Positions 1-15,106 of a DNA stretch of 64,000 nt are shown here, in pieces (position 1 is the stretch's first letter; every line of letters starts with the position of its first letter). Under the pieces are notes generated by a model, which saw nothing but the letters and a program-made list of their open reading frames with translations, did no database searches and had not been told where the DNA came from. The DNA is from Streptomyces sp. T12. GTDB lineage: Bacteria > Actinomycetota > Actinomycetes > Streptomycetales > Streptomycetaceae. The DNA is taken from positions 7,068,001-7,132,000 of the forward strand of contig NZ_CP117866.1 in assembly GCF_028736035.1 (NCBI RefSeq), given 5' to 3'. The translations under genes were made by a program, and so were the position numbers.

Positions 1-1057
1 GGTCTCCTCCGGACCGTACAAGGTCGTCGAGAACGAGAACGACGGTGAGCGGCTCGTCCTGGAGCGCAACACCTACTGGTCCGCCGCGACGGACGCCGAG
101 CGCAAGGCCTACCCCGACAAGGTCGACGTACGGTCCGGGCTCGACTCGTCCGTGATCAACCAGCGGCTGTCCTCGTCCCAGGGTGCGGACGCGGCCGCGG
201 TCACCACGGACACCAACCTCGGCCCGGCCGAGCTGGCCAAGGTGACCGGCGACAAGGACCTTGCTTCTCGCGTCGGTACCGGACACTTCGGCTACACCAA
301 CTACATCGCGTTCAACCCGACGATCAAGCCGTTCGACAACGTCAAGGTGCGACAGGCGATCTCGTACGCCATCGACCGGTCGTCCGTGGTCAACGCCGCG
401 GGTGGTTCCGCGCTGGCCGAGCCCGCCACCACCTTCCTGCCGAACCAGAAGTCCTTCGGCTACGAGCCGTACGACCTGTTCCCGGCCGGCAAGGCGGGCA
501 ACGCCGCCAAGGCCAAGGAGCTGCTGGCTCAGGCCGGTTACAAGAGCGGGCTCACCGTCACCCTGACCCACTCCAACGCCAAGGACTTCGAGACCAGCCC
601 CGAGATCGCGACCGCGATCCAGGACGCGCTGAAGAAGGCCGGCATCACGGTCAAGCTGCAGGGGCTGGAGGAGAACGACTACTCCGACAAGATCCACAAC
701 GTGAAGACCGAGCCCGGCTTCTTCCTTGCCCACTGGGGTGCCGACTGGCCCTCCGGAGGTCCCTTCCTCGCCCCGATCTTCGACGGCCGGCAGATCGTCA
801 AGGACGGCGCGAACTTCAACACGGGCCTGCTCGATGACAAGTCGGTCAATGCCGAGATTGACGCGATCAACAAGTTGACCGATCTTGACGCCGCCGCCGA
901 GCGGTGGGGTGCACTGGACAAGAAGATCGGTGAGCAGGCGCTGACCGTGCCGCTGTTCCACCCGGTCTACAAGCGGCTGTACGGCAAGGACATCAAGAAC
1001 GTCGTGATCAGTGACTGGACCGGTGTTCTGGACATCTCCCAGGCCGCGGTGAAGTAG
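1..1057 (+). CDS. Peptide/nickel-type ABC transporter substrate-binding protein (partial, 5' end outside window)
   Basis: The frame is open from base 2, so the gene enters from the left; 351 C-terminal residues are visible. It is the extracellular solute-binding protein of a DppA/OppA-type importer (SBP_bac_5 family). The visible part opens with SSGPYKV, a family hallmark, followed by the conserved region around NYIAFNPTIKPFDNVKVRQAI and a C-terminal lobe with HWGADWPSGG. The N-terminal lipoprotein signal expected for the family lies outside the window. Permease genes follow 4 nt after the stop, so this is the first visible gene of an importer operon. Substrate cannot be told; oligopeptides or a metal chelate are likely. 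Confidence 0.9.
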   Translation, partial: VSSGPYKVVENENDGERLVLERNTYWSAATDAERKAYPDKVDVRSGLDSSVINQRLSSSQGADAAAVTTDTNLGPAELAKVTGDKDLASRVGTGHFGYTNYIAFNPTIKPFDNVKVRQAISYAIDRSSVVNAAGGSALAEPATTFLPNQKSFGYEPYDLFPAGKAGNAAKAKELLAQAGYKSGLTVTLTHSNAKDFETSPEIATAIQDALKKAGITVKLQGLEENDYSDKIHNVKTEPGFFLAHWGADWPSGGPFLAPIFDGRQIVKDGANFNTGLLDDKSVNAEIDAINKLTDLDAAAERWGALDKKIGEQALTVPLFHPVYKRLYGKDIKNVVISDWTGVLDISQAAVK

Positions 1058-1061
1058 CGCC

Positions 1062-2048
1062 GTGAGTGAGGCAGTTCTCGCCGTCGAGGCTCCCGGGGTG
1101 TCTGCTCCGGGGGCCTCGGGGGCTCGTCAGTTCTGGCGGCGGCTGCGGACGCAGCGCGCCGCCCTGGTCGCGGCGGTCGTCGTCGCGCTGCTCGTCCTGG
1201 TCGCGCTCGCCGCACCGCTGCTCACCGCGATCGAGGGCCAGGACCCGACCACGTACCACCCGTCCCTGGTGGACTCCGCGCGCGGGGGCGTACCCATCGG
1301 GTCGTTCGGCGGAGTCAGCGCCGAGCACTGGCTCGGCGTCGAACCGCAGACCGGCCGGGACCTGTTCGCGCGGCTGGTGTACGGCGCCCGGGTCTCCCTC
1401 GGCGTCGCGGTGGCCGCGACCGTCGTCCAGGTCGCCATCGGCGTCGTGGTGGGCGTCGCGGCCGCGCTGGGCAGCCGCTGGGTCGATCAGCTGCTGAGCC
1501 GCTTCACCGACGTCATCGTGGCGATGCCGTTGATGATCATGGCGTTGGCGCTGCTCGCGATCGTGCCGTCGAGTTTCCCGCGGCCCGTGCTGGTCGCCCT
1601 CGTGATCGGGCTGATCGCATGGGGCAGCCTCGCGAAGATCGTGCGCGCCCAGACGCTCACCCTCAAGGGGCTCGACTACGTCGCCGCCGCCCGGCTCAGC
1701 GGCTGGCGCACCTGGCGGATCGCCGTCCGCGAGCTGCTCCCGGGACTCGCGGCGCCGGTCATCACGTACGCCGCGCTCCTGATCCCGCAGAACATCACCG
1801 TCGAGGCCGCCCTGTCCTTCCTGGGCGTCGGCGTGAAGCCGCCGACGCCGTCCTGGGGACAGATGCTCACCGCCGCCGACGTCTGGTACCAGGCCGCTCC
1901 GCAGTACCTGCTGCTGCCCGCCGGCGCGCTCTTCGTGACCGTCCTCGCGCTGACCGTCCTCGGCGACGGTGTGCGCACGGCGCTCGACCCGCGCGCGGCG
2001 TCCCGGCTGCGCGTCGGCACCGGCCGCAAGAGGGAGGCCAAGGCATGA
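1062..2048 (+). CDS. ABC transporter permease, DppC/OppC family
   Basis: A 328-residue inner-membrane permease. The GTG start lies 4 nt after the stop of the binding-protein gene. An N-terminal cytoplasmic segment precedes a first membrane helix at about residues 28-50 (ALVAAVVVALLVLVALAAPL). Next comes the DppC-type extracytoplasmic stretch with HWLGVEPQTGRDLFARLVYGAR, which is the conserved 'LGTDxxGRDxxSR' region. Four to five further helices follow. The ATPase-docking EAA loop is recognisable around YVAAARLSGWRTWRIAVREL. The protein pairs with the DppB-type permease encoded next. Length and motifs are normal for the family. Confidence 0.93.
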   Translation: MSEAVLAVEAPGVSAPGASGARQFWRRLRTQRAALVAAVVVALLVLVALAAPLLTAIEGQDPTTYHPSLVDSARGGVPIGSFGGVSAEHWLGVEPQTGRDLFARLVYGARVSLGVAVAATVVQVAIGVVVGVAAALGSRWVDQLLSRFTDVIVAMPLMIMALALLAIVPSSFPRPVLVALVIGLIAWGSLAKIVRAQTLTLKGLDYVAAARLSGWRTWRIAVRELLPGLAAPVITYAALLIPQNITVEAALSFLGVGVKPPTPSWGQMLTAADVWYQAAPQYLLLPAGALFVTVLALTVLGDGVRTALDPRAASRLRVGTGRKREAKA

Positions 2049-2081
2049 GGGCCATGGGAGAGGGGGCCAAGGCATGAGCGG
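2035..2081. repeat. 14-bp direct repeat at the dppC/dppB junction
   Basis: The sequence ggccaaggcatgag occurs twice, 32 bp apart. In the first copy the TGA is the stop of the DppC-type permease; in the second the ATG is the start of the DppB-type permease. A short local duplication could have created the new start and ribosome-binding region. Confidence 0.6.
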
Positions 2082-3072
2082 CTTCGGTGGATTCGCGCTG
2101 CGCCGGACCGTCGGTGCCGTCGTCACCCTGTTCGCCATCTCGGTGATCGTCTACGTCGTCTTCTACGTCACCCCCGGCAACGTCGCCCAGATCACCTGCG
2201 GCCCGCGCTGCTCACCCGCCCAGGTGCAGCAGGTCGCCGAGCAACTGCATCTGAACGACCCGCTGTACACGCGCTACTGGCACTTCCTGCAAGGCCTCGT
2301 CGCCGGCCAGGACTACTCGACGGGCACCTCGGTGCAGCACTGCCCGGCACCCTGCCTCGGGCTGTCGTACCAGAGTGACCAGCAGGTCACCGCGCTGATC
2401 CTGGCGAAGCTGCCGGTGAGCCTGTCGCTGGTGTTCGGCGCCATGGTGCTGTGGCTGATCCTCGGCGTCGGCACCGGTGTCCTGTCCGCCTGGCGACGCG
2501 GCCGGCTCACCGAGCGGCTGCTGACCGGCGTCACGCTCGCCGGCGTGGCCACGCCGGTCTTCGTCATCGGGCTCGTCCTGATGATCGTCGTCTGCGGGCA
2601 GCTTCAACTGCTGCCGTTCCCGCAGTACGTCGCCTTCACCGACGATCCCGAACAGTGGGCGTGGAACCTGCTGCTGCCCTGGCTCTCGCTCGCCCTGATC
2701 GAGGCCGCCGCCTTCGCCCGGCTGACCCGGGCGGCGATGCTGGAGACGCTGGCCGAGGACCACATCCGCACCTTCCGGGCCTACGGCGTCGGCGAGCGGT
2801 CGGTCATCGGACGGCACGCGCTGCGCGGGGCACTCGCGCCGGTCATCGCGCTCAACGCCAACAACTTCGGCAGCGCGGTCGGCGGCGCGGTGCTCACCGA
2901 GACGCTCTTCGGACTGCCCGGCATCGGGCAGGAACTGGTCCACGCCGTGAACGTGGTCGACCTTCCGGTCGTCGTCGGCATGGTCCTGGTCATCGGATTC
3001 TTCGTGGTCGTCGCCAACGCGGTCGCGGACGTGCTGTACGCGGTGGCCGATCGACGGGTGGTGCTGGCATGA
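2074..3072 (+). CDS. ABC transporter permease, DppB/OppB family
   Basis: A 332-residue permease forming the transmembrane channel with the upstream DppC-type protein. I chose the ATG at 2074 (MSGFGGF) because a purine-rich stretch (gagaggggg) precedes it and the first DppB helix begins soon after at residue 12. The open frame runs further upstream, but only through the previous gene. Six helices are visible, with an EAA loop near HIRTFRAYGVGERSVIGRHAL and the C-terminal ETLFGLPGIGQELVHAV motif typical of DppB. The external loop carries a cysteine cluster (ITCGPRCSPAQ and QHCPAPC), longer than in enteric DppB. Its stop overlaps the ATPase start by 4 nt. Confidence 0.93.
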   Translation: MSGFGGFALRRTVGAVVTLFAISVIVYVVFYVTPGNVAQITCGPRCSPAQVQQVAEQLHLNDPLYTRYWHFLQGLVAGQDYSTGTSVQHCPAPCLGLSYQSDQQVTALILAKLPVSLSLVFGAMVLWLILGVGTGVLSAWRRGRLTERLLTGVTLAGVATPVFVIGLVLMIVVCGQLQLLPFPQYVAFTDDPEQWAWNLLLPWLSLALIEAAAFARLTRAAMLETLAEDHIRTFRAYGVGERSVIGRHALRGALAPVIALNANNFGSAVGGAVLTETLFGLPGIGQELVHAVNVVDLPVVVGMVLVIGFFVVVANAVADVLYAVADRRVVLA

Positions 3073-4670
3073 GCCTGGTGAACGTCACGGACCTGACGGT
3101 CGAGTTCGGGTCCCTGCACGCGGTCGACGGCCTCACCTTCCGCCTGGAGCAGGGCGCCGCCCTCGCCCTGGTCGGCGAGTCCGGCTCCGGCAAGTCCACG
3201 GTCGCCTCGGCCTTGCTCGGGCTGCACCGCGGCACGGGCGCGCGGGTCGGCGGCTCGATCGAGGTCGCGGGCGTCGACGTACAGGTGGCGTCCGACGACG
3301 AACTGCGGCGGCTGCGCGGCGGGAAGGCCGCCATGGTCTTCCAGGACCCGCTGTCGTCCCTGGACCCCTACTACGCGATCGGCGACCAGATCGCCGAGGT
3401 GTACCGCGTGCACACGCGTGCCTCGCGACGGGTGGCACGCGCGCGTGCCGTGGAGGTGCTGGACCGGGTCGGCATTCCGGACGCGGTACGGCGATCCCGT
3501 GCGCGCCCGCACGAGTTCAGCGGCGGCATGCGCCAACGCGCCCTCATCGCCATGGCGCTGGCCTGCGCACCCGACCTGCTGATCGCCGACGAGCCGACGA
3601 CCGCGCTCGACGTGACCGTCCAGGCCCAGATCCTCGACCTCCTGCACACGCTCCGCGAGGAGACGGGCATGGGGCTCCTTCTCGTCACGCATGACGTCGG
3701 AGTCGCCGCGGAGAGCGTCGACGAGGTGCTGGTGATGCGGCACGGCCGGGCGGTGGAACACGGGCCGGTCTCCGCCGTACTGGGATCGCCCGTGCAGCCG
3801 TACACGCGCGAACTGCTCGGCGCGGTCCCGCGCGTGGATGCGGCGCGCGGCGATTCCGACGTTCCCGAGAGGCAGGCCGAGGTCGTCCTGGCGGCGACCG
3901 GCCTCCGGCGTGAGTTCGGGCGTGGGAAGCGGGCGTTCACGGCGGTGGACGACGTGTCGCTGACGATCCACCGCGGCGAGACCCTCGGGATCGTGGGGGA
4001 GAGCGGCAGCGGCAAGACCACCCTCGGGCGCATGCTGGTCGGCCTCCTGGAACCGACGGCGGGCGAGGTCCGTTACGACGGCCACGCGCGCGTGGGCGTG
4101 AATCCCGCAGTACAGATGGTCTTCCAGGACCCGGTCTCCTCCCTCAACCCCCGCCGCAGCGTGGGCGAATCGATAGCCGACCCGCTCCGCGCGCGTGGCG
4201 AGGGCGATGAGGGGCGCATCCGGGGGCGTGTGCGGGAACTGCTGGAGCGCGTGGGGCTCGAAGCGGCGCACTACGACCGCTATCCGCACGAGTTCAGCGG
4301 CGGCCAGCGCCAGCGCGTGGGCATCGCCCGGGCGCTCGCGGCCGACCCGCGCGTCATCGTCTGCGACGAGCCCGTCTCCGCACTCGACGTGACCACGCAG
4401 GCCCAGGTGGTCGCCCTGCTCGGCGAGTTGCAGCGCGAACTCGGACTCGCCCTCGTCTTCGTCGCGCACGACCTCGCCGTCGTACGCCAGGTCAGCGACC
4501 GGGTCGCGGTGATGCGGCGCGGGCGGATCGTCGAGGAAGGCCCCGCCGACGAGGTGTACGACAGCCCGCAGGACCCGTACACCAAGCAGCTCCTGGCCGC
4601 CGTACCGGCACTCGATCCGCGGATCGCGGCCCAGCGGCGGGCAGCACGACGGGAGTTGGCCGTGGTGTGA
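3069..4670 (+). CDS. Fused dual ATP-binding protein of a Dpp/Opp-type ABC importer
   Basis: A 533-residue protein with two complete ATPase domains, equivalent to DppD and DppF joined in one chain. The first half has Walker A GESGSGKST (about residue 35), signature FSGGMRQRALIAMA and Walker B LLIADEPTTALD. The second has Walker A GESGSGKTT (about residue 310), signature FSGGQRQRVGIARA and Walker B VIVCDEPVSALD. The oligopeptide-type C-terminal extension YTRELLGAVP / YTKQLLAAVP follows each half. The ATG at 3069 overlaps the permease stop (ATGA), indicating translational coupling. Both sites keep all catalytic residues, so both should bind and hydrolyse ATP. Confidence 0.95.
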   Translation: MSLVNVTDLTVEFGSLHAVDGLTFRLEQGAALALVGESGSGKSTVASALLGLHRGTGARVGGSIEVAGVDVQVASDDELRRLRGGKAAMVFQDPLSSLDPYYAIGDQIAEVYRVHTRASRRVARARAVEVLDRVGIPDAVRRSRARPHEFSGGMRQRALIAMALACAPDLLIADEPTTALDVTVQAQILDLLHTLREETGMGLLLVTHDVGVAAESVDEVLVMRHGRAVEHGPVSAVLGSPVQPYTRELLGAVPRVDAARGDSDVPERQAEVVLAATGLRREFGRGKRAFTAVDDVSLTIHRGETLGIVGESGSGKTTLGRMLVGLLEPTAGEVRYDGHARVGVNPAVQMVFQDPVSSLNPRRSVGESIADPLRARGEGDEGRIRGRVRELLERVGLEAAHYDRYPHEFSGGQRQRVGIARALAADPRVIVCDEPVSALDVTTQAQVVALLGELQRELGLALVFVAHDLAVVRQVSDRVAVMRRGRIVEEGPADEVYDSPQDPYTKQLLAAVPALDPRIAAQRRAARRELAVV

Positions 4671-4909
4671 CCCTCCCGGTGGCCCGGGTGGCCTCGGTGG
4701 CCCCGGTCGTTCAGGTGTGACGATCCGTGCGCGTTTGATCTCTTAGCGCGACGGAACGCGACCTGCACGGGAAAGTTACGACCGTTCACCCCTTTTGGTG
4801 GCGCGATGGACAACCGTCCGTCGCGCCACCGCCTTGTCCCCTTACGTTCGTCCCGCTGCGAGCCGCCGGAGGAACGGTGGCTCCCCTTAGGGAGATCGGG
4901 GGTGTACTC
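4671..4909. other. Intergenic region between the ABC importer and the polysaccharide cassette
   Basis: No gene is visible in these 239 nt. The stretch holds the presumed promoter of the downstream glycosyltransferase and the strong 15-bp hairpin at 4797-4830. A GGAAC box at 4753-4757 lies 17 nt before a GTT. It resembles an ECF sigma promoter but fits neither the sigma-R spacing nor its -35 box exactly. Confidence 0.5.
4797..4830. promoter_or_regulatory. 15-bp stem-loop upstream of the PelF-like gene
   Basis: The left arm is 4797-4811, the loop is aacc, and the right arm is 4816-4830. Fourteen pairs are Watson-Crick and one is a G-T pair. No T-run follows on either strand. It could be a terminator for the importer operon or a leader structure for the cassette that starts 80 nt downstream. 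Confidence 0.5.
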
Positions 4910-6631
4910 GTGCGCATCGGACTGATTGCGGAGGGTGGCTATCCGTATGTGAACGGTGACGCCAGGCTCTGGTGCGACCGGCTCGTGCGCGGGCTCGGAC
5001 AGCACGAGTTCGACATCTACGCGCTCAGCCGCAGCGAGCGCCAGGAGGACGAGGGCTGGGGCCCGCTGCCACCGCAGGTCAGCCGCGTGCGCACGGCGCC
5101 GCTGTGGACGGCCGAGGACGACGGGGTGGTGTACGGGCGCCGTGCGCGCCGGCGGTTCGCCGAGTGCTACGGCGAGTTGGTGGCCGTGCTCTGCGCAGGG
5201 GGCACCAGAGACGCTACCGGGGCCTCGGAGGACGCGTCGGCCACTGAGGCGGACCGTTTCGGCAACGCGCTGTACGGGCTCGCCGAACTCGCCCGCGACG
5301 AGGGCGGACTGGTGGGAGCGCTCCGCTCCGAGGCCGCCGTACGCGCCCTTGAGCGCGCCTGCCGGGCGCGGGGCGCCCTGCGCCAGGCGCGTGAGGCGCG
5401 CGTACCCGATCTGCTGGCCTTCGCCGCACATCTGGAACGCGCCCTGCGCCCCCTCTCGCTCGACTGGTACGAGGACGACGGCCTGGGCTCGGTCGACCTG
5501 TGCCACGCCGCTTCCGGCGGCTCGGCGGCCCTGCCGGGCCTGCTCGCCCACCACTTCTGCGGCGTACCGCTGCTGCTGACCGAGTACGGGGTGCGGCTCC
5601 GCACGCACTACCTGGCCGCCACCGAGTCCTCGCCCGCCGTACGGTCCCTGCTCGCCGCCTTCCACGGCAGGCTCGCCGCCGAGACGTACGCCCGGGCCGC
5701 CGTCATCACGCCCGGCAACGCCCACGCCCGCCGCTGGCAGGAACGCTGCGGCGCCGACCGCGCGAAGCTGCGCACGGTCTACCCCGGCATGGACGCTTCC
5801 CGCTTCGCGGAGGTCGGCGAGGCCCAGGAGTGCGCGGACCCGGACACGCTCGTCTGGGTCGGCCGTATCGAACCCGCCAAGGACCTGGTGTCGTTGCTGC
5901 ACGCCTTCGCCGAGGTCCGCAAGGAGGAGCCGAAGACGCGGCTGCGGATCGTCGGTACCCCCTCGGGCCCCGAGGGCGCCGCCTACCTCGGCCACTGCAG
6001 GGCGCTGGCCGCGCAGCTCTTCCCCGACGAGGCCGAGGGCCCGCACATCGTCGGCGACAACCCGGTCTCCTTCGAGGAGATCGGCGGCCCGGAGATCCCC
6101 ACGCTCGCCGACGCGTACGCCTCGGGTGCCGTGGCCGTCCTGTCCAGCGTCGTCGAGGGCTTTCCGATCAGCCTGGTCGAGGCCATGTTCTGCGGCCGTG
6201 TGACGGTGTCCACGGACGTCGGCGCGGTGGTGGAGGTCATCGGCGGCACCGGTCTCGTCGTACCCCCGCGCAACCCACGGGCGCTCGCGGAGGCCTGTGT
6301 GGCGCTGTTGCGCGACCCCGAGCGCCGTGAGCGCCTGGGCGCGGCGGCACGCGCGCGTGCGCTCGAACTGTTCACCGTCGAGCAGAACGTCGCAGCATTT
6401 CACGGCATTTACCTGGAGATCGTCTCGCGCACGCCGGTCCGCCGTAGCGTCGTCCTCGACGAGGCCGGAGCCCCCTTGCCCTTCGCCGTACCCGCCGAGG
6501 CCCACGTCCCCGGCCGCTGGACCGAGCGATCCGCACGCCTGGTGGCCCGCGGCGGCCCGGCCCGCCCGAGCGGAGCCCCCGTACGCGCCACCGCGTCGCC
6601 TGCGACGCCCGCGACGGAGGCGGCGCGATGA
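4910..6631 (+). CDS. PelF-like family 4 glycosyltransferase with N-terminal DUF3492
   Basis: A predicted cytoplasmic glycosyltransferase of 573 residues related to PelF, which polymerises the amino-sugar polymer Pel from nucleotide sugars. The GTG at 4910 gives the family start MRIGLIAEGGYPYVNGD, and a G-rich ribosome site lies 8 nt upstream; a GTG at 4877 is in frame but less likely. The N-terminal half is DUF3492. The C-terminal half is a GT-B domain with LVWVGRIEPAKDL (about residue 310), GDNPVSFEE and the donor-site ExxxxxxxE motif in EGFPISLVEAMFCG (about 415-428). It is longer than PelF (about 500) because of a basic, proline-rich tail. The next gene overlaps by 4 nt. The exact polymer is unknown. 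Confidence 0.85.
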   Translation: MRIGLIAEGGYPYVNGDARLWCDRLVRGLGQHEFDIYALSRSERQEDEGWGPLPPQVSRVRTAPLWTAEDDGVVYGRRARRRFAECYGELVAVLCAGGTRDATGASEDASATEADRFGNALYGLAELARDEGGLVGALRSEAAVRALERACRARGALRQAREARVPDLLAFAAHLERALRPLSLDWYEDDGLGSVDLCHAASGGSAALPGLLAHHFCGVPLLLTEYGVRLRTHYLAATESSPAVRSLLAAFHGRLAAETYARAAVITPGNAHARRWQERCGADRAKLRTVYPGMDASRFAEVGEAQECADPDTLVWVGRIEPAKDLVSLLHAFAEVRKEEPKTRLRIVGTPSGPEGAAYLGHCRALAAQLFPDEAEGPHIVGDNPVSFEEIGGPEIPTLADAYASGAVAVLSSVVEGFPISLVEAMFCGRVTVSTDVGAVVEVIGGTGLVVPPRNPRALAEACVALLRDPERRERLGAAARARALELFTVEQNVAAFHGIYLEIVSRTPVRRSVVLDEAGAPLPFAVPAEAHVPGRWTERSARLVARGGPARPSGAPVRATASPATPATEAAR

Positions 6632-7908
6632 GCGGCCTGGGAGGCCTGGACCGTCCTGGCGCCCCGACCAGCCCCGGGGCTTGGGACGAGCGGTCGGAGG
6701 AGTGGCTCGTGGCAGAGACGGACGTACACGAGACGGGAGCCGACGCACCCCTTAGCGGCCAAGAACCGACCGCCACCCGCACCACCACCGGCCCACGGCC
6801 GACCCCCACCCGCCGCACCGGCGCCGACCCCGTGAAGGCGCTGCTGCACCGTCACCGCGCCCTGTGCGAACGCGCGGTGGACCCCCTGGAGATCGCCGCC
6901 GGCCTGGAGGCCCACGGCGTCACCGACCGCACCGCGGCACGCTTCCTGCACCGGGACGTCTTCTCCCTCGCGGAGGAGATGTACGCCCGAGTGGCCCGCG
7001 ACGGCGAAACGCCCGTCGGCCCCCCACCCCTCACCACCCCCCGCGCGCGAGCCGACTGGATTCTCCTCACCCTCCTCCCCGGAGCCCTCTGCGCGGCGGC
7101 CGTGACCGCCCTGCACCTCACCCACGGCCAGTCTCGCCTGATCGCGGCCGCCGTGGGAGCCCTCGCCGTGACCCTCGCCCTGCGCGCGGCACTGGCCCGA
7201 GGCCCCCTCGCCACCACGCACGCCGCACGCCCGGCGGTCACACGCCCGACGGCCACCCGGACCTGCTGGCTCCTCGCCTACGCCCTCATCGGTGACGGAC
7301 TCCTCCAGGCAGCCGTCACCGCAGGCCCCGACGCCCTCCCCAACGGCACCGCCGACGGCCTCTGGCCCCTCACCACAGCCCCCGTCCTGGCCCTCGCCCT
7401 CTCCTGCGCCCCCGCGGCATGGTGCGCGCACCTCCTCGCCGTACGAGCCCGCCGCAAACTGTCGGCCAGCCGAGCCCTGGAGGACTTCGCCACCTCCGTA
7501 AAGCCCCTGCTCCTGGGCACCTTCGCCCTCTACCTCGGCGCCCTGACAGCCCTGCTCGCCCTGACCACCACGGCCCTGGACGAGCCCGCCGCCTACCCCC
7601 AGACCCTCGCCCTGGGCGCCCTTCTGCTCCTCTCCCGCCTCCTCGCCACCCACGGCTTCACCCACGCCCCCGCACTGGTCCTCACCGCCGCAGTCACAGC
7701 CGAGGCCACGGCCCTGACCACCCTCTTCACAGCCCGCCTCCCCGGCTGCGCCTGGCTGGCAACCCCCGTCCAGTCCCTGATCGACGCATGGGGCCCGGCC
7801 GCCATCCCCACCATCGCCTGCGGCACGGGCGCCCTGACCCTCCTGCTCCACGCCACACGCACCCTCACGAGGGCGTCGGCGCACGCAACCGCGGACCAGC
7901 CGTGTTGA
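6628..7908 (+). CDS. Multi-pass membrane protein of unknown function in the PelF-like operon
   Basis: I do not recognise a named family. The ATG at 6628 overlaps the glycosyltransferase stop (ATGA), so the two are almost certainly co-translated. The 426-residue product has a hydrophilic N-terminus of about 145 residues. This includes a charged, probably helical block (RHRALCERAVDPLEIAAGLE, then a segment ending FSLAEEMYARVARD at about 75-125). About eight hydrophobic helices follow from residue 148 to the C-terminus. Context suggests export or assembly of the polymer made by the upstream enzyme, in the place PelG or PelE would occupy. That role is inference; length and helix count are below the 12 helices of PelG. 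Confidence 0.75.
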   Translation: MSGLGGLDRPGAPTSPGAWDERSEEWLVAETDVHETGADAPLSGQEPTATRTTTGPRPTPTRRTGADPVKALLHRHRALCERAVDPLEIAAGLEAHGVTDRTAARFLHRDVFSLAEEMYARVARDGETPVGPPPLTTPRARADWILLTLLPGALCAAAVTALHLTHGQSRLIAAAVGALAVTLALRAALARGPLATTHAARPAVTRPTATRTCWLLAYALIGDGLLQAAVTAGPDALPNGTADGLWPLTTAPVLALALSCAPAAWCAHLLAVRARRKLSASRALEDFATSVKPLLLGTFALYLGALTALLALTTTALDEPAAYPQTLALGALLLLSRLLATHGFTHAPALVLTAAVTAEATALTTLFTARLPGCAWLATPVQSLIDAWGPAAIPTIACGTGALTLLLHATRTLTRASAHATADQPC

Positions 7909-8325
7909 CGCGGCAGCAGCTCCCGCAGACGCGGCGCCGTACTCGCGTACGGCGGGAAGGGGACGTGCCGGGGTGCGCCCGCCCGCAGCGGCAGGCGTCA
8001 ACAATCGGTGCCCCTTTGAGCGACCGAGCCGCGGGACCGAGGACGGACATCCCCCGGCGCGCGCCAGGACCGTGCCGCGCACGCCGCGCACTCCGCGCCG
8101 GCCCCGACCCACAACGCACCCGCAGGGGATCCGCGTACCCCCACGCAGCAGCACAGGCCGCCGCAGGCACCCCGGCCACACCGCCGGAGGCACCCGCACA
8201 GCCCGCCGCGGGCATCCCGCCCCGACCGACGGAGGCCCCCGCAGGCATACGCGCCCACGAACCAGCTGCCCTTCTGCCTGAAAGCCCTTCTGCCTGAAGC
8301 CCTTGTCCTTGAAGGAGACCCCCAA
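7909..8325. other. Intergenic region without a supported gene; contains two small repeats
   Basis: No convincing coding sequence is visible, although GC-rich antisense frames stay open. It holds an 8-bp inverted repeat (7935-7942 / 7947-7954, CGCCGTAC with a 4-nt loop) shortly after the membrane-protein gene, without a T-run. Near its end is a 15-bp direct repeat (gcccttctgcctgaa at 8268-8282 and 8284-8298), with a third partial copy running into the ribosome site of the next small ORF. Confidence 0.5.
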
Positions 8326-8376
8326 ATGATCACCTCCCGACCCGACCACGACTCGGCCCCGGGAGCCGCCCGATGA
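8326..8376 (+). CDS. 16-residue leader ORF coupled to the epimerase gene
   Basis: A short ORF (MITSRPDHDSAPGAAR) has a strong ribosome site (gaaggag, 8310-8316) 9 nt upstream of its ATG. Its TGA overlaps the ATG of the epimerase gene (ATGA), so it may serve translational coupling. It has no run of a single amino acid that would suggest amino-acid attenuation. It may also be chance in GC-rich DNA; conservation of the ORF in related strains would decide. Confidence 0.4.
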   Translation: MITSRPDHDSAPGAAR

Positions 8377-9371
8377 GAGTCCTGCTGATCGGAGCCAACG
8401 GCTACCTCGGCCGCTTCGTAGCCGACCGCCTCCTCGCGGACCCCGCCGTCCAACTCACCGCGCTCGGCCGCGGCGACGACGCCGACGTCCGCTTCGACCT
8501 CGCGTCCGGCAGCCCCGGCGCCCTCACCCGCTTCCTCGACGCGGTCCACCCCGGCGTCGTCATCAACTGCGCCGGTGCCACCAGAGGCGGCGCCCGCGAA
8601 CTCACCCGCCACAACACCGTCGCCGTCGCCACCGTCTGCGAGGCCCTGCGCCGCAGCGGCTGCGGCGCCCGGCTCGTCCAGATCGGCTGCGGTGCCGAGT
8701 ACGGCCCGAGCCAGCCCGGCTCCTCCACGGCCGAGGACGCCGTTCCCCGCCCCGGCGGCCCGTACGGCGTCAGCAAACTCGCCGCCACCGAACTGGTCCT
8801 GGGCTCCGGCCTGGACGCCGTCGTCCTGAGGGTCTTCTCGCCCGCAGGCCCCGGCACCCCCGCCGGCTCCCCCCTCGGCCGCCTCGCCGAGGCCATGCGC
8901 CGCGCCATGCAGTCCGGCGACGGCGAGCTCAAACTCACCGGCCTCGGCGCCCAGCGCGACTTCATCGACGTCCGCGACGTGGCCCGCGCCGTCCACGCCG
9001 CCTCGCTGTCCGCCGCGCAGGGCGTCATCAACATCGGCTCGGGCCGCGCCGTCCGTCTCCGGGACGCCGCCGCCGTCCTCGCCCGCGTGGCCGGATACGG
9101 CGGCGCCCTGCACGAACTCGACGGTCCGCCCGGCCCGTTGCGGCCGTCCATCGGGCATCCCCGCGCCGACTCGGACCACATGGCCCATGCGACCCATTCG
9201 ACCCATGCGGCGCATGCGGGCGCCGGCGCCCCGGTCGCGTACCCGGACGGCTGCGGCAGCTGGCAGCAGGCCGACGTGCGCACCGCACGCGACCGGCTCG
9301 GCTGGCGCCCCCGGATCAACCTCGAAGAGTCCCTGGGGGACATCTGGATGGAGGCGGCATGCCGTATCTGA
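8373..9371 (+). CDS. NAD-dependent epimerase/dehydratase (extended SDR)
   Basis: A 332-residue extended short-chain dehydrogenase/reductase, probably acting on a nucleotide sugar. The Rossmann motif GANGYLGR is at residues 8-15, INCAGATRGG at about 56-65, and the catalytic YGVSK motif (Tyr and Lys) at about residue 131. The membership as a UDP-hexosamine epimerase is inferred from the neighbouring PelF-like transferase and spherulin-type glycosidase; a 4-epimerase would supply UDP-GalNAc. A His/Ala-rich insertion (HMAHATHSTHAAHAG, about residue 270) looks recent and low-complexity. The stop overlaps the next gene by 13 nt. Confidence 0.85.
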   Translation: MRVLLIGANGYLGRFVADRLLADPAVQLTALGRGDDADVRFDLASGSPGALTRFLDAVHPGVVINCAGATRGGARELTRHNTVAVATVCEALRRSGCGARLVQIGCGAEYGPSQPGSSTAEDAVPRPGGPYGVSKLAATELVLGSGLDAVVLRVFSPAGPGTPAGSPLGRLAEAMRRAMQSGDGELKLTGLGAQRDFIDVRDVARAVHAASLSAAQGVINIGSGRAVRLRDAAAVLARVAGYGGALHELDGPPGPLRPSIGHPRADSDHMAHATHSTHAAHAGAGAPVAYPDGCGSWQQADVRTARDRLGWRPRINLEESLGDIWMEAACRI

Positions 9372-10201
9372 CCGGCACCCCACCGACGGCAACGAGCACG
9401 GGCCTCCGCACCGGCCTCGGCATTCCCGGCTACGCCCACCCCCTCCTCGCCCCCACCGAGTGGGGCGAACTCACCCGCCCCGGCACCCCCGTGCACTGGG
9501 TGGTCCTGAACGTCGCGGACGGCCCCGGCACCCGCCCCGACCCGCACTGCCTCGAGACCACCGGACGGCTCCGCAACGCGGGAGTCCGCGTCCTGGGCCA
9601 CCTGGACGCCGCCCACCTGGGCACGGCCCATTTGGACACGGCGCACGTCGCGGGGGCGGACGTCGAGGCGCCGCACGTCGCGGCGGCCCAAGGCGCCCGC
9701 GCCTTCGGTGAGGTGATCTCCGAGGCGCACCGCTACCTCGACTGGTACCGGGTCGACGGCTTCTTCCTGGACCGCTGCCCGACCGAACGCGCCGCCCTGC
9801 CCGCGATCCGCCGCACGATCACCACGCTCCGCGCGCTGCGTGACGAGGCCCACATCGTCCTCGGCCACGGCACCCACCCCCACCCGGGCTACGCCGAGTG
9901 CGCCGACCAGTTGGTCACCTTCCGGGGCTCGTGGAGCGACTACCGCTGGTCGCAGGTGGCGGAGTGGACCGCCGACTACCCGCCCGACCGCTTCTGCCAC
10001 TTCGTTCACGGAGTGCCCCGACCCCACCTGGACGAGGCACTGCGCATCGCCCGCTGGCAGGGCGCGGCGACCATCTATTTCACCGACCACACGGACCGCA
10101 CCGACCGTGGCGGGCGTGGCGGCCGCGCCGACGCCTGGGGGACCATGCCCGGCTACTGGGACGAAATCGTCTCGCGGATCGGAACAGGTGTCTCGGAATG
10201 A
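9359..10201 (+). CDS. Spherulin-4-like putative glycoside hydrolase
   Basis: A 280-residue protein of the spherulation-specific family 4. Members include Sph3 (GH135, cleaving fungal galactosaminogalactan), with the GH114 and PelA hydrolase domains as relatives. Seen here are GIPGYAHPLLAPTEW near the N-terminus, DWYRVDGFFLDRCPT (acidic residues in the family's active-site strand, about residue 120-140), LGHGTHPHPGYA, and the C-terminal WQGAATIYFTD. No signal peptide is visible, unlike secreted relatives, so it may act inside or be released by another route. A low-complexity AH-rich repeat (HLDAAHLGTAHLDTAHVA, about residues 80-100) interrupts it. The ATG overlaps the epimerase gene, indicating one operon. 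Confidence 0.75.
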   Translation: MPYLTGTPPTATSTGLRTGLGIPGYAHPLLAPTEWGELTRPGTPVHWVVLNVADGPGTRPDPHCLETTGRLRNAGVRVLGHLDAAHLGTAHLDTAHVAGADVEAPHVAAAQGARAFGEVISEAHRYLDWYRVDGFFLDRCPTERAALPAIRRTITTLRALRDEAHIVLGHGTHPHPGYAECADQLVTFRGSWSDYRWSQVAEWTADYPPDRFCHFVHGVPRPHLDEALRIARWQGAATIYFTDHTDRTDRGGRGGRADAWGTMPGYWDEIVSRIGTGVSE

Positions 10202-10220
10202 AAAAGGCCATGGCACTGTT
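10195..10220 (+). promoter_or_regulatory. Sigma-R promoter of moeZ
   Basis: GGAAT (10195-10199), an 18-nt spacer and GTT (10218-10220) form an exact match to the sigma-R consensus of Streptomyces. The GGAAT ends on the first base of the stop codon of the spherulin-like gene. The moeZ GTG lies 44 nt downstream. moeB/moeZ is a reported sigma-R target in S. coelicolor. Confidence 0.85.
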
Positions 10221-10264: not shown

Positions 10265-11443
10265 GTGTCGCTGCCACCCCTGGTCGAGCCCGCATCCGAG
10301 CTCACCGTAGACGAGGTCCGCAGGTACTCCCGCCACCTGATCATCCCCGACGTGGGGATGGACGGGCAGAAGCGGCTGAAGAACGCCAAGGTGCTGTGTG
10401 TGGGCGCCGGCGGCCTGGGCTCGCCGGCGCTGATGTACCTGGCCGCGGCGGGCGTCGGCACGCTCGGCATCGTGGAGTTCGACGAGGTCGACGAATCGAA
10501 CCTGCAGCGCCAGATCATCCACAGCCAGGCCGACATCGGCCGCTCCAAGGCCGAGTCCGCGCGCGACTCCGTCCTCGGCATCAACCCGTACGTGAACGTG
10601 ATCCTTCACGAAGAGCGGCTCGAAGCCGAGAACGTGATGGACATCTTCAGCCAGTACGACCTGATCGTCGACGGCACGGACAACTTCGCGACCCGCTACC
10701 TGGTCAACGACGCCTGCGTGCTGCTGAACAAGCCGTACGTGTGGGGCTCGATCTACCGCTTCGACGGCCAGGCCTCCGTCTTCTGGTCCGAGCACGGTCC
10801 CTGCTACCGCTGCCTCTACCCGGAGCCCCCGCCGCCGGGCATGGTCCCCTCCTGCGCCGAGGGCGGCGTGCTGGGCGTGCTGTGCGCGTCCATCGGCTCC
10901 ATCCAGGTCAACGAGGCGATCAAGCTCCTCGCGGGCATCGGTGAGCCGCTGGTCGGCCGACTGATGATCTACGACGCCCTGGAGATGCAGTACCGCCAGG
11001 TCAAGGTCCGCAAGGACCCCAACTGCGCGGTCTGCGGCGAGAACCCGACCGTCACCGAGCTCATCGACTACGAGGCCTTCTGTGGCGTCGTCTCCGAGGA
11101 GGCCCAGGAGGCGGCCGCCGGCTCGACGATCACTCCCAAGCAGCTCAAGGAGTGGATCGACGACGGCGAGAACATCGAGATCATCGACGTCCGCGAGATC
11201 AACGAGTACGAGATCGTCTCGATCCCCGGCGCCCGGCTGATCCCGAAGAACGAGTTCCTCATGGGCACCGCCCTGGAGACCCTCCCGCAGGACAAGAAGA
11301 TCGTCTTGCACTGCAAGACGGGTGTCCGCAGTGCGGAAGTCCTCGCAGTCCTGAAGTCGGCAGGCTTCGCCGACGCCGTACACGTCGGCGGCGGCGTCAT
11401 CGGCTGGGTCAACCAGATCGAGCCGCACAAGCCGGTCTACTAA
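10265..11443 (+). CDS. moeZ: Adenylyltransferase/sulfurtransferase MoeZ (MoeB-rhodanese fusion)
   Basis: A 392-residue cytoplasmic enzyme. It adenylates the C-terminal Gly-Gly of small sulfur-carrier proteins (MoaD, ThiS, CysO types) and then loads sulfur onto them as thiocarboxylate, for molybdopterin, thiamine and cysteine synthesis. Residues 1-270 are a ThiF/E1-like domain with the nucleotide loop GAGGLGSPALMY (about 47-58), the R-Q-I-I-H motif, and zinc cysteines at 180/183 and 254/257. Residues 295-390 are a rhodanese domain with active Cys 350 in LHCKTGVRSAEV. The GTG start follows a weak GGAG site. The sigma-R promoter ahead of it links sulfur mobilisation to disulfide stress. A terminator follows the stop. 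Confidence 0.95.
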   Translation: MSLPPLVEPASELTVDEVRRYSRHLIIPDVGMDGQKRLKNAKVLCVGAGGLGSPALMYLAAAGVGTLGIVEFDEVDESNLQRQIIHSQADIGRSKAESARDSVLGINPYVNVILHEERLEAENVMDIFSQYDLIVDGTDNFATRYLVNDACVLLNKPYVWGSIYRFDGQASVFWSEHGPCYRCLYPEPPPPGMVPSCAEGGVLGVLCASIGSIQVNEAIKLLAGIGEPLVGRLMIYDALEMQYRQVKVRKDPNCAVCGENPTVTELIDYEAFCGVVSEEAQEAAAGSTITPKQLKEWIDDGENIEIIDVREINEYEIVSIPGARLIPKNEFLMGTALETLPQDKKIVLHCKTGVRSAEVLAVLKSAGFADAVHVGGGVIGWVNQIEPHKPVY

Positions 11444-11875: not shown

Positions 11876-13423
11876 TCATGAGCAGACCTTGCCGTCCTTC
11901 GGTACCGTCCCCCGCAGCAGGTACGCGTTCACCGTGGAGTCGACGCAGTCGTTCCCCTTCCCGTACGCGGCGTGGCCCTCGCCCTTCCAGGTGAGCATCA
12001 CGCCGACGCCCTTGCCCAGTTCGTCGGCCATCTTCCGGGTGCCCTCGTAGGGCGTCGCCGGGTCGCCGGTGTTGCCGACCAGAAGGATGGGTGCCGCACC
12101 CCGCGCACTCACCTCCGGGGTGTCGTGCTGCCCGGCCACCGGCCAGTCGTGGCACCAGCCGGCCGTGTCCCAGCCCAGCATGGGACCGAACACGGGCGAG
12201 ACCTTCTCGAACCGCGGCAGCAGCTTCTTCGTCTCCTCGACCGTCGGCCGCTGCTTGGTGTCCAGGCACGATATGACCCGTTGCGAGTGGGTCCCCGTGC
12301 TGTAGTGCCCCGAGGCGCTGCGATCGTTGTAGTCGTCGGCGAGTGCCAGGAGTTCCGAGCCGTCTCCCTCCTCGGCCGCCTCCAGGGCGCTGGTCAGGGT
12401 CGGCCAGCTCGCTTCGCTGTACAGCGGCCTGATGATGCCGATGAGCGCGAGTGCCTCGGTGAGTTTCCGTCCGGACGACGTCGGCAGCGGGCTCGCGTCG
12501 ATGCGCTTCAGCAGGTCCACGATCTTCTGCGTGCCTTCATCGGCGCCCTGGCCGGTGGACTCGAGGTAGTTGTTCAGCGCGCGCTGGAAGCCCCTGGCCT
12601 GGTTCTCGGCGTGTCCCTCCCCGTCGGCGCTCGGGTCGACGACCGCGTCCAGGATCAGCCGCCCCACGTTCCTCGGGAACAAGTGGGCGTATACGCCGCC
12701 GAGTTCGGTGCCGTAGGAGATGCCGAAGTAGTGCATCTTCGTGTCGCCGAGGACCTGGCGCATCAGGTCCATGTCGCGGGCGGTGTCGGTGGTCGACACA
12801 TGCGCGATCAGCGTCCCCTCGGACTTCTGGCAGCCCTTGCCGAAGTCGGCGGCGTCCCGGAGGTAGGCCGTCTCCTCCGCCGAGGTGTCCGGCGTGATGT
12901 CCACGGACTCGGAGGCCTGGATCTCCTTGTCGCCGCGGCAGCGCACGCCTTCACTGGCGCCGACCCCGCGCGGGTCCCAGCTCACCAGGTCGTACCGCTT
13001 GGCGAGCTCGGAGGTGGAGGAGGCGTACCACGGCAGCGTGGACACCCCCGAGCTGCCGGGACCGCCGAAGTTGAACAGGAGCGAGCCGATGCGGTCGTCG
13101 GCACTGGCCTTGGTGCGGATCAGGGCGAGGTCGATCGTCCTGCCCTCCGGCTTCGCCCAGTCCAGCGGCGCCTCGAGCGTCGCGCACTGCCACTCGTCGC
13201 CCGGCGCGGGGGAGTCCCCGGTGGCCTTGCAGCGTCCCCAGTCGAGCTTTTGCGAGGTCAGGGAGGACGGCAATGGCGTCGCCGAGCCGGCGGACGTGGC
13301 CGAGGAACTCGTCCCGCTCGCCTTCCCGCCGGCCTTGCCGCCGTCGGACGAGCCGCCACTGCAGCCCGTCGCCAGGAGCGCGGCGGTGGCCGTCAGGGCC
13401 GTCCACCATGCGAATCGCGCCAT
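11876..13423 (-). CDS. SlpD/SlpE-like lipoprotein peptidase (S33, TAP-like alpha/beta hydrolase), copy 1
   Basis: A 515-residue secreted, membrane-anchored peptidase of the tripeptidyl-aminopeptidase family found in Streptomyces (SlpD/SlpE, Tap). The start at 13423 (MARFAWW) has a gaggggg ribosome site. A lipoprotein signal ends in ATGC, so Cys 22 or so should carry the lipid. The alpha/beta-hydrolase core shows the oxyanion strand FNFGGPGSSG, DPRGVGASEG, the nucleophile elbow GISYGT (Ser at about 236), the acid region GNTGDPATPYEGT and the catalytic His in GEGHAAYG. The C-terminal half is the TAP-like domain. The next gene upstream on the same strand is a full-length paralogue, so the pair arose by tandem duplication. 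Confidence 0.92.
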   Translation of the reverse strand: MARFAWWTALTATAALLATGCSGGSSDGGKAGGKASGTSSSATSAGSATPLPSSLTSQKLDWGRCKATGDSPAPGDEWQCATLEAPLDWAKPEGRTIDLALIRTKASADDRIGSLLFNFGGPGSSGVSTLPWYASSTSELAKRYDLVSWDPRGVGASEGVRCRGDKEIQASESVDITPDTSAEETAYLRDAADFGKGCQKSEGTLIAHVSTTDTARDMDLMRQVLGDTKMHYFGISYGTELGGVYAHLFPRNVGRLILDAVVDPSADGEGHAENQARGFQRALNNYLESTGQGADEGTQKIVDLLKRIDASPLPTSSGRKLTEALALIGIIRPLYSEASWPTLTSALEAAEEGDGSELLALADDYNDRSASGHYSTGTHSQRVISCLDTKQRPTVEETKKLLPRFEKVSPVFGPMLGWDTAGWCHDWPVAGQHDTPEVSARGAAPILLVGNTGDPATPYEGTRKMADELGKGVGVMLTWKGEGHAAYGKGNDCVDSTVNAYLLRGTVPKDGKVCS

Positions 13424-13558
13424 GCCATTTCCCCCCTCGCAGGCCGTCCGCACCGTGCCGCGGATGGCGGTCAGGCCATAGTAGGCGGATCACGAAAGGG
13501 CCGTAGCGGCCTGTGGGTAACCCTCTGACCTGCCAGTTTGGCGCTTCCTCGGTCAGTT

Positions 13559-15106
13559 TCAGGAGCAGACGGTGCCCGCCGCCGGCGCCTTCCCGTCCAG
13601 CAGATAACCGTTCACCGCGTCCTGCACGCACTTGTTCTTGCTGTTGTACGCCCCGTGTCCCTGCCCCTTGTACGTCAGCTCGACGCCCACCCCCTTGCCC
13701 AGCGCCTGGACCATCCTCCGCGCGCCCTCGTACGGCGTGGCCGGGTCGCCGGTGTTGCCCACGACGAGGATCGGCGCCGAGCCGGGCGCACCGACCTCGG
13801 GATGGTCGGCGGCGCCCGCCACGGCCCAGTCGGTGCAGCTGAGCATGGACCAGGCCAGGGAGTCGCCGAACAGGTTCGAGGCGGCCCGGAACGCGGGCAG
13901 TCTCCGCTCCACGTCCTCGGCTGTGTACCGGGGCTTGTCATCGGCACAGTTGATCGCCACGTTGGCCGGGATGATGTTGCTGTACTCGCCGTTCTCGCGG
14001 CGTCCGGTGCTCGAGTCGGCCAGCAGCATCAGGGAGCTGCCGTCACCGTCGTACGCCTGCACCAGGCCCTGGGTGAGGTACTCCCAGAAGTTCTTCGAGT
14101 ACAGCGCCTGCATGATGCCGGACGTCGCGGCGGTCTGGGTCAGCTCGCGCGGGAAGATGCCCTGGATCGGTTTGCTGTCGAGGTCCTTCAGCAGCTTGGC
14201 GATGCGGTCCTTGACGTCCTGGGGGGTGTCGCCGATCGGGCAGGCCTCGGTCTTCGACGTGCAGTCCTCGGCGAAGTTGTCCAGTGCGAGCTGAAAACCC
14301 TCGGCCTGCGCGAGCGCGTTCTGCTCGGCGTTCTTCGTCGGGTCGACGACCGCGTCGAAGACGGCGCGCCCCACGTTTGCGGGGAACAAGTGGGCGTATA
14401 CGCCGCCGAGTTCGGTGCCGTAGGAGACGCCGAAGTAGTGCAGCTTGTCGTCGCCGAGGACCTGGCGCATCAGGTCCAGGTCACGGGCCGCGTCGGTGGT
14501 GATCACATGGGGCAGCATCCCGTCGGAGTTCTTCTCGCACGCCGCGTTGAACTCCTTGGCGCTGTCCAGCAGTTCGGTCCGCTCGGCGGCGTCGTCGGGC
14601 GTTGCGTCCTGCTGGAAGTAGGCGTCGAGGTGCTGGTCGTTCCCGCACCGCACGGGCTCGCTGCGGCCGACCCCGCGCGGGTCGAAGCTCACCAGGTCGT
14701 AGCGGGCGCGCAGCTTCTCATACCCGCCGGCGAAGGAAGGCAGGCTGGTGACGCCCGACCCGCCGGGCCCGCCGAAGTTGAAGATCAGCGAGCCGATGCG
14801 CCGGTTCGCGTCGCCGCTGGCCTTCACCCGGATCAGCTCGATGTCGATCGTGTCGCCCTTGGGCTCGTCCCAGTCGCGCGGTGCCTTCATCGTGGCGCAC
14901 TGCCATGCGCCGCCGCCCGGCAGAGGTGACGGGCTGCCCCCGCCGCCCTGCGCCTGGGAGGGGGCCGGGCAGTCCTTCCAGCTCAGCTCCTGGGCCGTCA
15001 GATCCTCGTCCCCGGAGTCGTCGTCGCTGCAGCCCGCCAGCAGGGCGGACACCAGCAGGGCCGTGGCGGTCAGGGCGGCTGCGCGCATCCGGGGAGGGTT
15101 CGGCAT
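13559..15106 (-). CDS. SlpD/SlpE-like lipoprotein peptidase, copy 2
   Basis: The paralogue of the preceding entry, also 515 residues. The start at 15106 (MPNPPRM) is chosen for the short signal peptide; an in-frame ATG at 15087 (MRAAALT) would give an even more typical one. The lipobox LLAGC is ideal. The active-site motifs are conserved: FNFGGPGGSGV, DPRGVGRSEP, GVSYGTELGG (Ser at about 228), GNTGDPATPYEGA and KGQGHGAYN. Cysteine pairs in the lid region (CTSKTEACP) suggest a disulfide. Likely role: trimming extracellular peptides at the cell surface. No shared promoter is obvious; 135 nt separate it from copy 1, with the repeat region 15213-15353 upstream. Confidence 0.92.
   Translation of the reverse strand: MPNPPRMRAAALTATALLVSALLAGCSDDDSGDEDLTAQELSWKDCPAPSQAQGGGGSPSPLPGGGAWQCATMKAPRDWDEPKGDTIDIELIRVKASGDANRRIGSLIFNFGGPGGSGVTSLPSFAGGYEKLRARYDLVSFDPRGVGRSEPVRCGNDQHLDAYFQQDATPDDAAERTELLDSAKEFNAACEKNSDGMLPHVITTDAARDLDLMRQVLGDDKLHYFGVSYGTELGGVYAHLFPANVGRAVFDAVVDPTKNAEQNALAQAEGFQLALDNFAEDCTSKTEACPIGDTPQDVKDRIAKLLKDLDSKPIQGIFPRELTQTAATSGIMQALYSKNFWEYLTQGLVQAYDGDGSSLMLLADSSTGRRENGEYSNIIPANVAINCADDKPRYTAEDVERRLPAFRAASNLFGDSLAWSMLSCTDWAVAGAADHPEVGAPGSAPILVVGNTGDPATPYEGARRMVQALGKGVGVELTYKGQGHGAYNSKNKCVQDAVNGYLLDGKAPAAGTVCS

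Follow-up and report, generated by a model that had tools for sequence, protein, structure and literature searches.

The fungal galactosaminogalactan (GAG) cluster comprises Uge3, Gtb3, Sph3, Agd3 and Ega3 (PMC7229062, PMC12054363), the Gram-positive Pel operon is organized as pelDEADAFG (PMC7112168), and agd3-containing bacterial operons carry a glycosyltransferase and a membrane protein, some of the actinobacterial ones together with Spherulin-4 genes (PMC7229062), all as given in the excerpts of these papers on which the present comparisons are based. The locus considered here lies in a 64,000-nucleotide stretch (the window; contig NZ_CP117866.1, positions 7,068,001 to 7,132,000) of the 11.46-Mb genome of Streptomyces sp. 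T12, and consists of genes for a PelF-like transferase (GT), a membrane protein (TM), a short-chain dehydrogenase/reductase (SDR) sugar enzyme (EPI) and a Spherulin4/GH135 protein (SPH), followed by moeZ (Table 1). In a preliminary description, the four were proposed to form an undescribed machine for an amino-sugar polymer. All four genes are present as described there, and the cassette is near-universal in the genus and under purifying selection, EPI above all. We consider it, at slightly better than even chances and with the mechanism proposed below included, to be a genus-wide re-specialized paralog of a GAG/Pel-type system rather than a working polymer machine, because the acid/base residue of its hydrolase homolog has been lost, the transferase site is altered, the membrane protein is modeled with 8 rather than 12 helices and no deacetylase turned up next to it. 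Its conserved, structured leader and the purifying selection argue that this paralog is still used.

Like the GAG cluster, the window cassette has a sugar SDR, a membrane-linked glycosyltransferase synthase and a GH135 fold, but its SDR is nearest to 4-ketoreductases, its GH135 protein is catalytically incomplete and no Agd3 or Ega3 was found; in addition, Sph3 is described as membrane-bound (PMC7229062, PMC12054363), whereas SPH, judged by eye, has no hydrophobic N-terminus or apparent signal peptide. As in the Pel operon, a PelF-type transferase adjoins a membrane protein, but the cassette has no PelG match (PelD, PelE and GH166 were not searched by name) and no deacetylase family among the open reading frames (ORFs) scanned, and GT lacks the GGVS and TEHGIYxRER of canonical PelF. 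With the agd3-containing operons it shares a cytoplasmic glycosyltransferase, a multi-spanning membrane protein and, as in some of them, a Spherulin-4 gene, and it differs in that the ORFs scanned include neither an agd3-like gene nor GH114 and that its GH135 protein lacks the acid/base Glu. Full-text literature searches found no study of a window-type cassette. Loci were labeled by gene content as A (the window cassette), B and C, and the B/C loci are of the kind in print as agd3-containing actinobacterial exopolysaccharide operons (PMC7229062), so that the intact form of the machine is not undescribed.

The four proteins of the cassette

GT matches the NCBIfam PelF equivalog with 102.8 bits, a borderline score (cut-off 100) in a protein whose canonical motifs differ. 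Numbered from 4877, Asp28 stands in place of the GG loop's second Gly and Tyr237 in place of the TEHG His, while EX7E is kept, both in the window and in all 70 readable transferases of 77 Streptomyces loci. Among A-type transferases generally the GG loop is replaced and the TEHG His mostly so. The GGVS, TEHG and SISEG motifs are common to the B/C transferases and to reference PelFs, taken as those adjoining a true PelG, which three further genomes of this phylum have, and are lacking in the A type. In the transferase tree all 15 A rows lie on one side of a branch with 100/100 support and a length of 0.76, and the A-type transferase shares ancestry with the motif-intact B/C transferases. The proposed assignment as a PelF-type transferase holds as far as the score goes, but not for the GG loop and, mostly, the TEHG His.

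SPH matches PF12138 Spherulin4 (E 8.6e-21, 75 bits, cut-off 30.2). Its acid/base position corresponds to Sph3 Glu222, the general acid/base of GH135 according to an excerpt of PMC12054363. This Glu is absent from 24/24 and 80/80 A loci, two sets that have two loci in common, and present in 14/14 B/C loci. Because it is missing from every ortholog checked, the intracellular editing glycosidase that had been suggested is unlikely. A second position, where Arg139 of SPH aligns with Sph3 Glu167, was not used as an A-type loss, since B/C proteins also have Gln or Arg there. Residues ~80-110 of SPH consist of fast-changing inserts with DTAHL-type repeats that differ among close relatives.

TM matched no Pfam or NCBIfam family. 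The membrane part of its AlphaFold2 model has 8 long helices and one short one, and its homolog in B loci is modeled as a 12-helix MOP/MATE fold; on these models TM is a reduced homolog of the B-type MOP/MATE-fold exporter. Unlike MOP transporters (MATE, MurJ, WzxE), the A-type model has only 8 membrane helices, from which one MOP lobe would be largely missing. The suggestion that TM is the export part thus stands in so far as TM belongs with an exporter, but the protein is reduced. PelG is assigned to the MOP/MATE class. As had been stated, no PelG (PF16933) is found at the curated cut-off in the window's genome (two sub-cut-off matches, the best 26 bits vs 29), and among 296 genomes of the phylum PelG exceeds it in three. 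A comparison of the membrane proteins with PelG by hhalign came out negative, TM giving 0.5% probability against a three-sequence actinobacterial PelG alignment.

EPI had been called an epimerase, which is doubtful: its nearest PDB relatives are 4-keto-6-deoxy-hexose reductases, it reaches only 30.7 bits against the galE equivalog (cut-off 262.3), and it lacks a complete Ser/Thr-Tyr-Lys triad, the triad Ser being Cys in 25/25 readable loci and in a set of 80/80 loci. A fast-changing His-rich loop at residues ~262-285 (HMAHATHSTHAAHAG) differs among close relatives. The EPI start overlaps the stop of a small conserved ORF, with ATGA or GTGA at this place in 111/111 loci, which is in part a consequence of EPI beginning with Met-Arg. 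Within 110 nt there is an in-frame ATG in 101 of the 111, and 81 of these 101 end in GA[AV]R, counted among the ten commonest endings. The conserved C-terminus and the overlapping stop together suggest translational coupling or a leader peptide.

Intact paralogous loci

B/C loci are found in many Streptomyces and contain an Agd3-like deacetylase, a motif-intact PelF, a Glu-retaining GH135 protein and an exporter modeled, for B loci, with a 12-helix MATE/MOP fold. At 2.785 Mb the window's own genome has another DUF3492 gene, which scores much higher against PelF (166.7 bits) and the neighbors of which form a B locus (Agd3-like protein, GT, TM and SPH). The Agd3-like assignment is based on Pfam matches and on conserved motifs that, by eye, resemble metal ligands; the Agd3_CE matches are weak (E<=0.1 in 9 of 10 B/C members; 28.6 vs a cut-off of 27.6 for the first member of the alignment), and a PDB search with one such protein and with the alignment found no relative. 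C loci, known from other genomes, add EPI before SPH. Where the intervening genes were examined, a LegB-like dehydratase and a nucleotidyltransferase are also present (L050, L205), and L052 has a GH114 gene. With such a 4,6-dehydratase and nucleotidyltransferase beside EPI, and GH114 in L052, the polymer of C loci may include a 6-deoxy amino sugar in place of plain N-acetylgalactosamine (GalNAc).

Catalytically complete B/C SPHs (L030, L050 and others) also begin without an apparent signal peptide, and in L030 the stop codon of TM overlaps the start of SPH, which makes it plausible that the GalNAc hydrolase there is cytoplasmic. In 101 sampled genus genomes DUF3492 was high-scoring, that is B/C-type, in 50, weaker only in 46 and absent in 5; the figure of 50 is defined by E<1e-50 alone, and a genome with its second match in two pieces (G009) is counted in the 46. 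Because those 46 show just a weaker match, the window-type cassette is probably the sole such locus in nearly half of the sampled genomes. Judged from gene content and motifs, an amino-sugar polymer machine fits the B/C loci better than the window cassette.

Conservation, leader RNA and neighboring genes

The order GT-TM-EPI-SPH-moeZ recurs across the genus beyond chance. A gene-neighborhood survey, as had been recommended, covered the 80 best among 556 EPI matches, all in named Streptomyces, and 77 of these loci had the four genes together with moeZ; in the other three GT, or GT and TM, is missing from the stretch fetched. TM has a match in 95 of 101 genus genomes, in one of them (G058) only at a C locus, and the named organisms in two lists of the 120 best A-type TM relatives are Streptomyces, plus one Kitasatospora. 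SPH matches at E<=1e-100 in 212 of 229 genus genomes, and of the other 17 six have no match and 11 a weaker one: in three the sole match is a remnant or lies at a B/C locus (G132, G156, G196), two retain just the last 26-27 residues (G147, G180), one is in two pieces (G311), one is partial (G308) and four were not looked at. A whole-genome Spherulin4 search missed the window SPH and others, and its counts were not taken as presence counts. GT, TM and EPI are kept without SPH in G064 and G127, and with an SPH remnant in G147 and G196. Outside Streptomyces, moeZ-linked GT and EPI without SPH occur in three genera of the same family (G252, G282, G307). A further moeZ-linked copy (G010) was dropped as a candidate broken locus, as its stretch has 5408 masked or unread bases and counts for nothing. 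Over six pairs, the ratio of nonsynonymous to synonymous substitution rates (dN/dS) is 0.04-0.11 for EPI, 0.20-0.33 for GT, 0.30-0.40 for TM, 0.20-0.52 for SPH and 0.04-0.14 for moeZ.

Upstream of GT, some 165 nt form a conserved, covarying leader RNA of the A-type transferase that is new to Rfam, a search of window positions 4400-5000 giving three matches, all far below gathering scores. With a strict pattern, 100 loci showed one copy each. Among 121 loci (the window and L030-L149) it missed 29, 14 of them B/C and 15 A; a covariance model recovered the leader in 11 of these 15, the other four being without the stretch or masked, and found none in the 14 B/C loci. The leader occurs at one place in its own genome and at one in G282, upstream of an A-type GT, and was found in neither G252 nor G307. 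In 40 sequences 95.3% of cells pair over the whole structure, and its covariation score was reached by 0 of 500 shuffles, with slid controls collapsing. Hairpin 1 exchanges C-G, U-A and U-G at two pairs, with four full exchanges each, in hairpin 2 both partners have changed in 5 of 7 pairs, and hairpin 3, which includes the GGGAG upstream of the start codon, is weakly supported (84.7% paired, both-side change at one pair). Since G-U pairs in hairpin 1 are as frequent as full exchanges, RNA is favored over a DNA operator palindrome; hairpin 1 may have a protein-binding role. Upstream of the hairpins, GGAAC-N17-GTT looks, by its sequence, like an extracytoplasmic function (ECF) sigma promoter. 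The [GA]AAC[GA]...GTTAC/GTCAC pair is present in 100/100 leader copies, with spacing N17 in 99 and N18 in one, but the copies were picked partly by GTTAC, which leaves the AAC half and the spacing as the independent part.

At the other end of the cassette, GGAAT and GTT within 150 nt upstream of moeZ are spaced N18 in 110 and N19 in one of 111 loci, and we take GGAAT-N18/19-GTT to be a SigR-type consensus. Because its own SigR-like pattern precedes it, moeZ is probably an independent transcription unit. Loci without SPH have the pattern too, and this accounts for the conservation of GVSE in them. GTGVSE, the conserved end of SPH, was therefore rejected as a functional peptide, its conservation being that of the moeZ promoter and not of the protein. 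An excerpt on the S. coelicolor NdgR regulon, NdgR being induced by SigR, lists moeB/SCO5178 (PMC4340878); from the product name we infer that SCO5178 is this moeZ, the only gene of SCO5178-SCO5182 named in the excerpts of the literature considered.

The genes had been described as compact and overlapping, but overlaps occur only at GT/TM (4 nt) and EPI/SPH (13 nt). Between TM and EPI lie 464 nt; of 23 relatives measured, 22 have a gap of 106-1056 nt there and one has an overlap. The SPH-moeZ gap is 63 nt, the same in 16 of 22 relatives measured. Each of the four genes has Streptomyces-type codon GC bias. Genes for an oligopeptide ABC (ATP-binding cassette) importer (152-4670; binding protein, permease and fused ATPases) end ~240 nt upstream of GT. 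The statement that no deacetylase is recognizable agrees with the ten window ORFs scanned, none of which matches such a family (two genes after moeZ were unscanned in their likely frame: the ORFs at 11972-13525 and 13538-14926 are probably in the wrong frame, the likely genes being on the minus strand).

Table 1. Positions of the cassette, its leader and its downstream neighbor in the window.
Feature	Position	Strand	Description
GGAAC-N17-GTT pattern upstream of GT	4753..4777	+	Candidate ECF-sigma-type promoter
Leader hairpin 1	4797..4830	+	15 bp, AACC loop, leader core; 98% of cells paired, 40 sequences
Leader hairpins 2 and 3	4860..4894	+	4860-4883 and 4881-4894, three bases in common
GT	4910..6631	+	DUF3492 and GT4, PelF-like, diverged; GTG start 4910, longest ORF from 4877
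TM	6628..7908	+	Conserved N-terminal helical domain (~aa 60-133) and 8 membrane helices (homology, AlphaFold2 model)
Small conserved ORF	8326..8376	+	MITSRPDHDSAPGAAR, then stop; 16 codons, good ribosome site, ends ATGA on EPI start
EPI	8373..9371	+	NAD-dependent SDR; Cys106 for triad Ser, Tyr131 and Lys135 kept (domain match, alignment)
SPH	9359..10201	+	GH135/Spherulin4 fold; Arg189 at acid/base site, Asp138 kept (profile, alignment)
moeZ promoter pattern GGAAT-N18-GTT	10195..10220	+	GGAAT overlaps SPH stop; 111 loci
moeZ	10265..11443	+	Constant downstream neighbor; NCBIfam MoeZ 756.9 bits, cut-off 647

Readings of the cassette

The earlier interpretation was sound in that the parts descend from a Pel/GAG-type system, but the roles it gave to hydrolase, epimerase, exporter and transferase are wrong or doubtful here. 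By sequence, the cassette is most likely a re-specialized membrane glycosylation or glycan-binding module. Its steps are proposed with decreasing confidence. EPI, still an enzyme, would supply or reduce a nucleoside diphosphate (NDP)-sugar; GT would be anchored to the membrane through the conserved N-terminal domain of TM, the shortened exporter homolog; GT would pass the sugar to a membrane-associated acceptor, no chain being built or exported; and, least surely, SPH, where kept, would bind glycan uncut or be a relic. The leader RNA would set GT/TM output.

An alternative that we regard as unlikely, yet the most serious, is a regulatory or sensor complex, in which GT, TM and SPH as pseudoenzymes bind NDP-sugar and glycan and report the state of the wall or polymer, EPI alone being catalytic. 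It would account for three proteins with lineage-fixed active-site changes or reduced folds, and for their fate in two sister genera, where GT has lost further motifs and is 41-42% identical to the window protein, compared with 58-59% for EPI; in G307 EX7E is gone from GT and no TM match lies between GT and EPI. The retention of EX7E in all readable Streptomyces loci speaks against it, however, as does the dN/dS of GT, which is that of an enzyme still used.

It is improbable that, as first proposed, the cassette continues to produce and export an amino-sugar polymer of the Pel/GAG kind. The PelF score just above cut-off, the retained EX7E, and gene kinds and an EPI-SPH order that are the same as in intact C loci do weigh for such a polymer and against re-specialization. 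This polymer would nevertheless have to be made with the hydrolase acid/base lost, with an exporter homolog modeled with 8 helices, in a genome without PelG above cut-off, with no deacetylase among the ten ORFs scanned, and with SPH absent from some genomes that retain GT, TM and EPI. Least probable of all is a slowly decaying relic kept mainly for EPI and the moeZ promoter, with GT, TM and SPH being lost: the 17 genomes without a full-strength SPH match, the faster evolution of GT and TM than of EPI, the loss of several motifs from the GT of G156 and the promoter-based conservation of the SPH C-terminus are consistent with it, but the dN/dS of GT, the near-universal retention of GT/TM and the covarying leader upstream of GT are not.

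Beyond re-specialization as such, it is a tentative possibility that a whole polymer machine has been converted, genus-wide and under a new leader RNA, into a non-polymerizing pseudoenzyme complex (reduced exporter fold, altered transferase, dead hydrolase and Cys-triad SDR) that senses or marks the envelope. If re-specialization is confirmed, the cassette would be a clear case of a polysaccharide machine repurposed while its gene order beside a housekeeping gene stayed fixed, with an intact paralog, often in the same cell, as the control; it also provides a new conserved leader RNA. Pipelines that annotate GT as PelF would attribute a Pel-type polymer to the strains in which this cassette is probably the sole such locus, although these may not produce one. 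A galactosamine polymer has been hinted at in Streptomyces walls, according to an excerpt of PMC7229062, and the B/C loci are the place to look for it.

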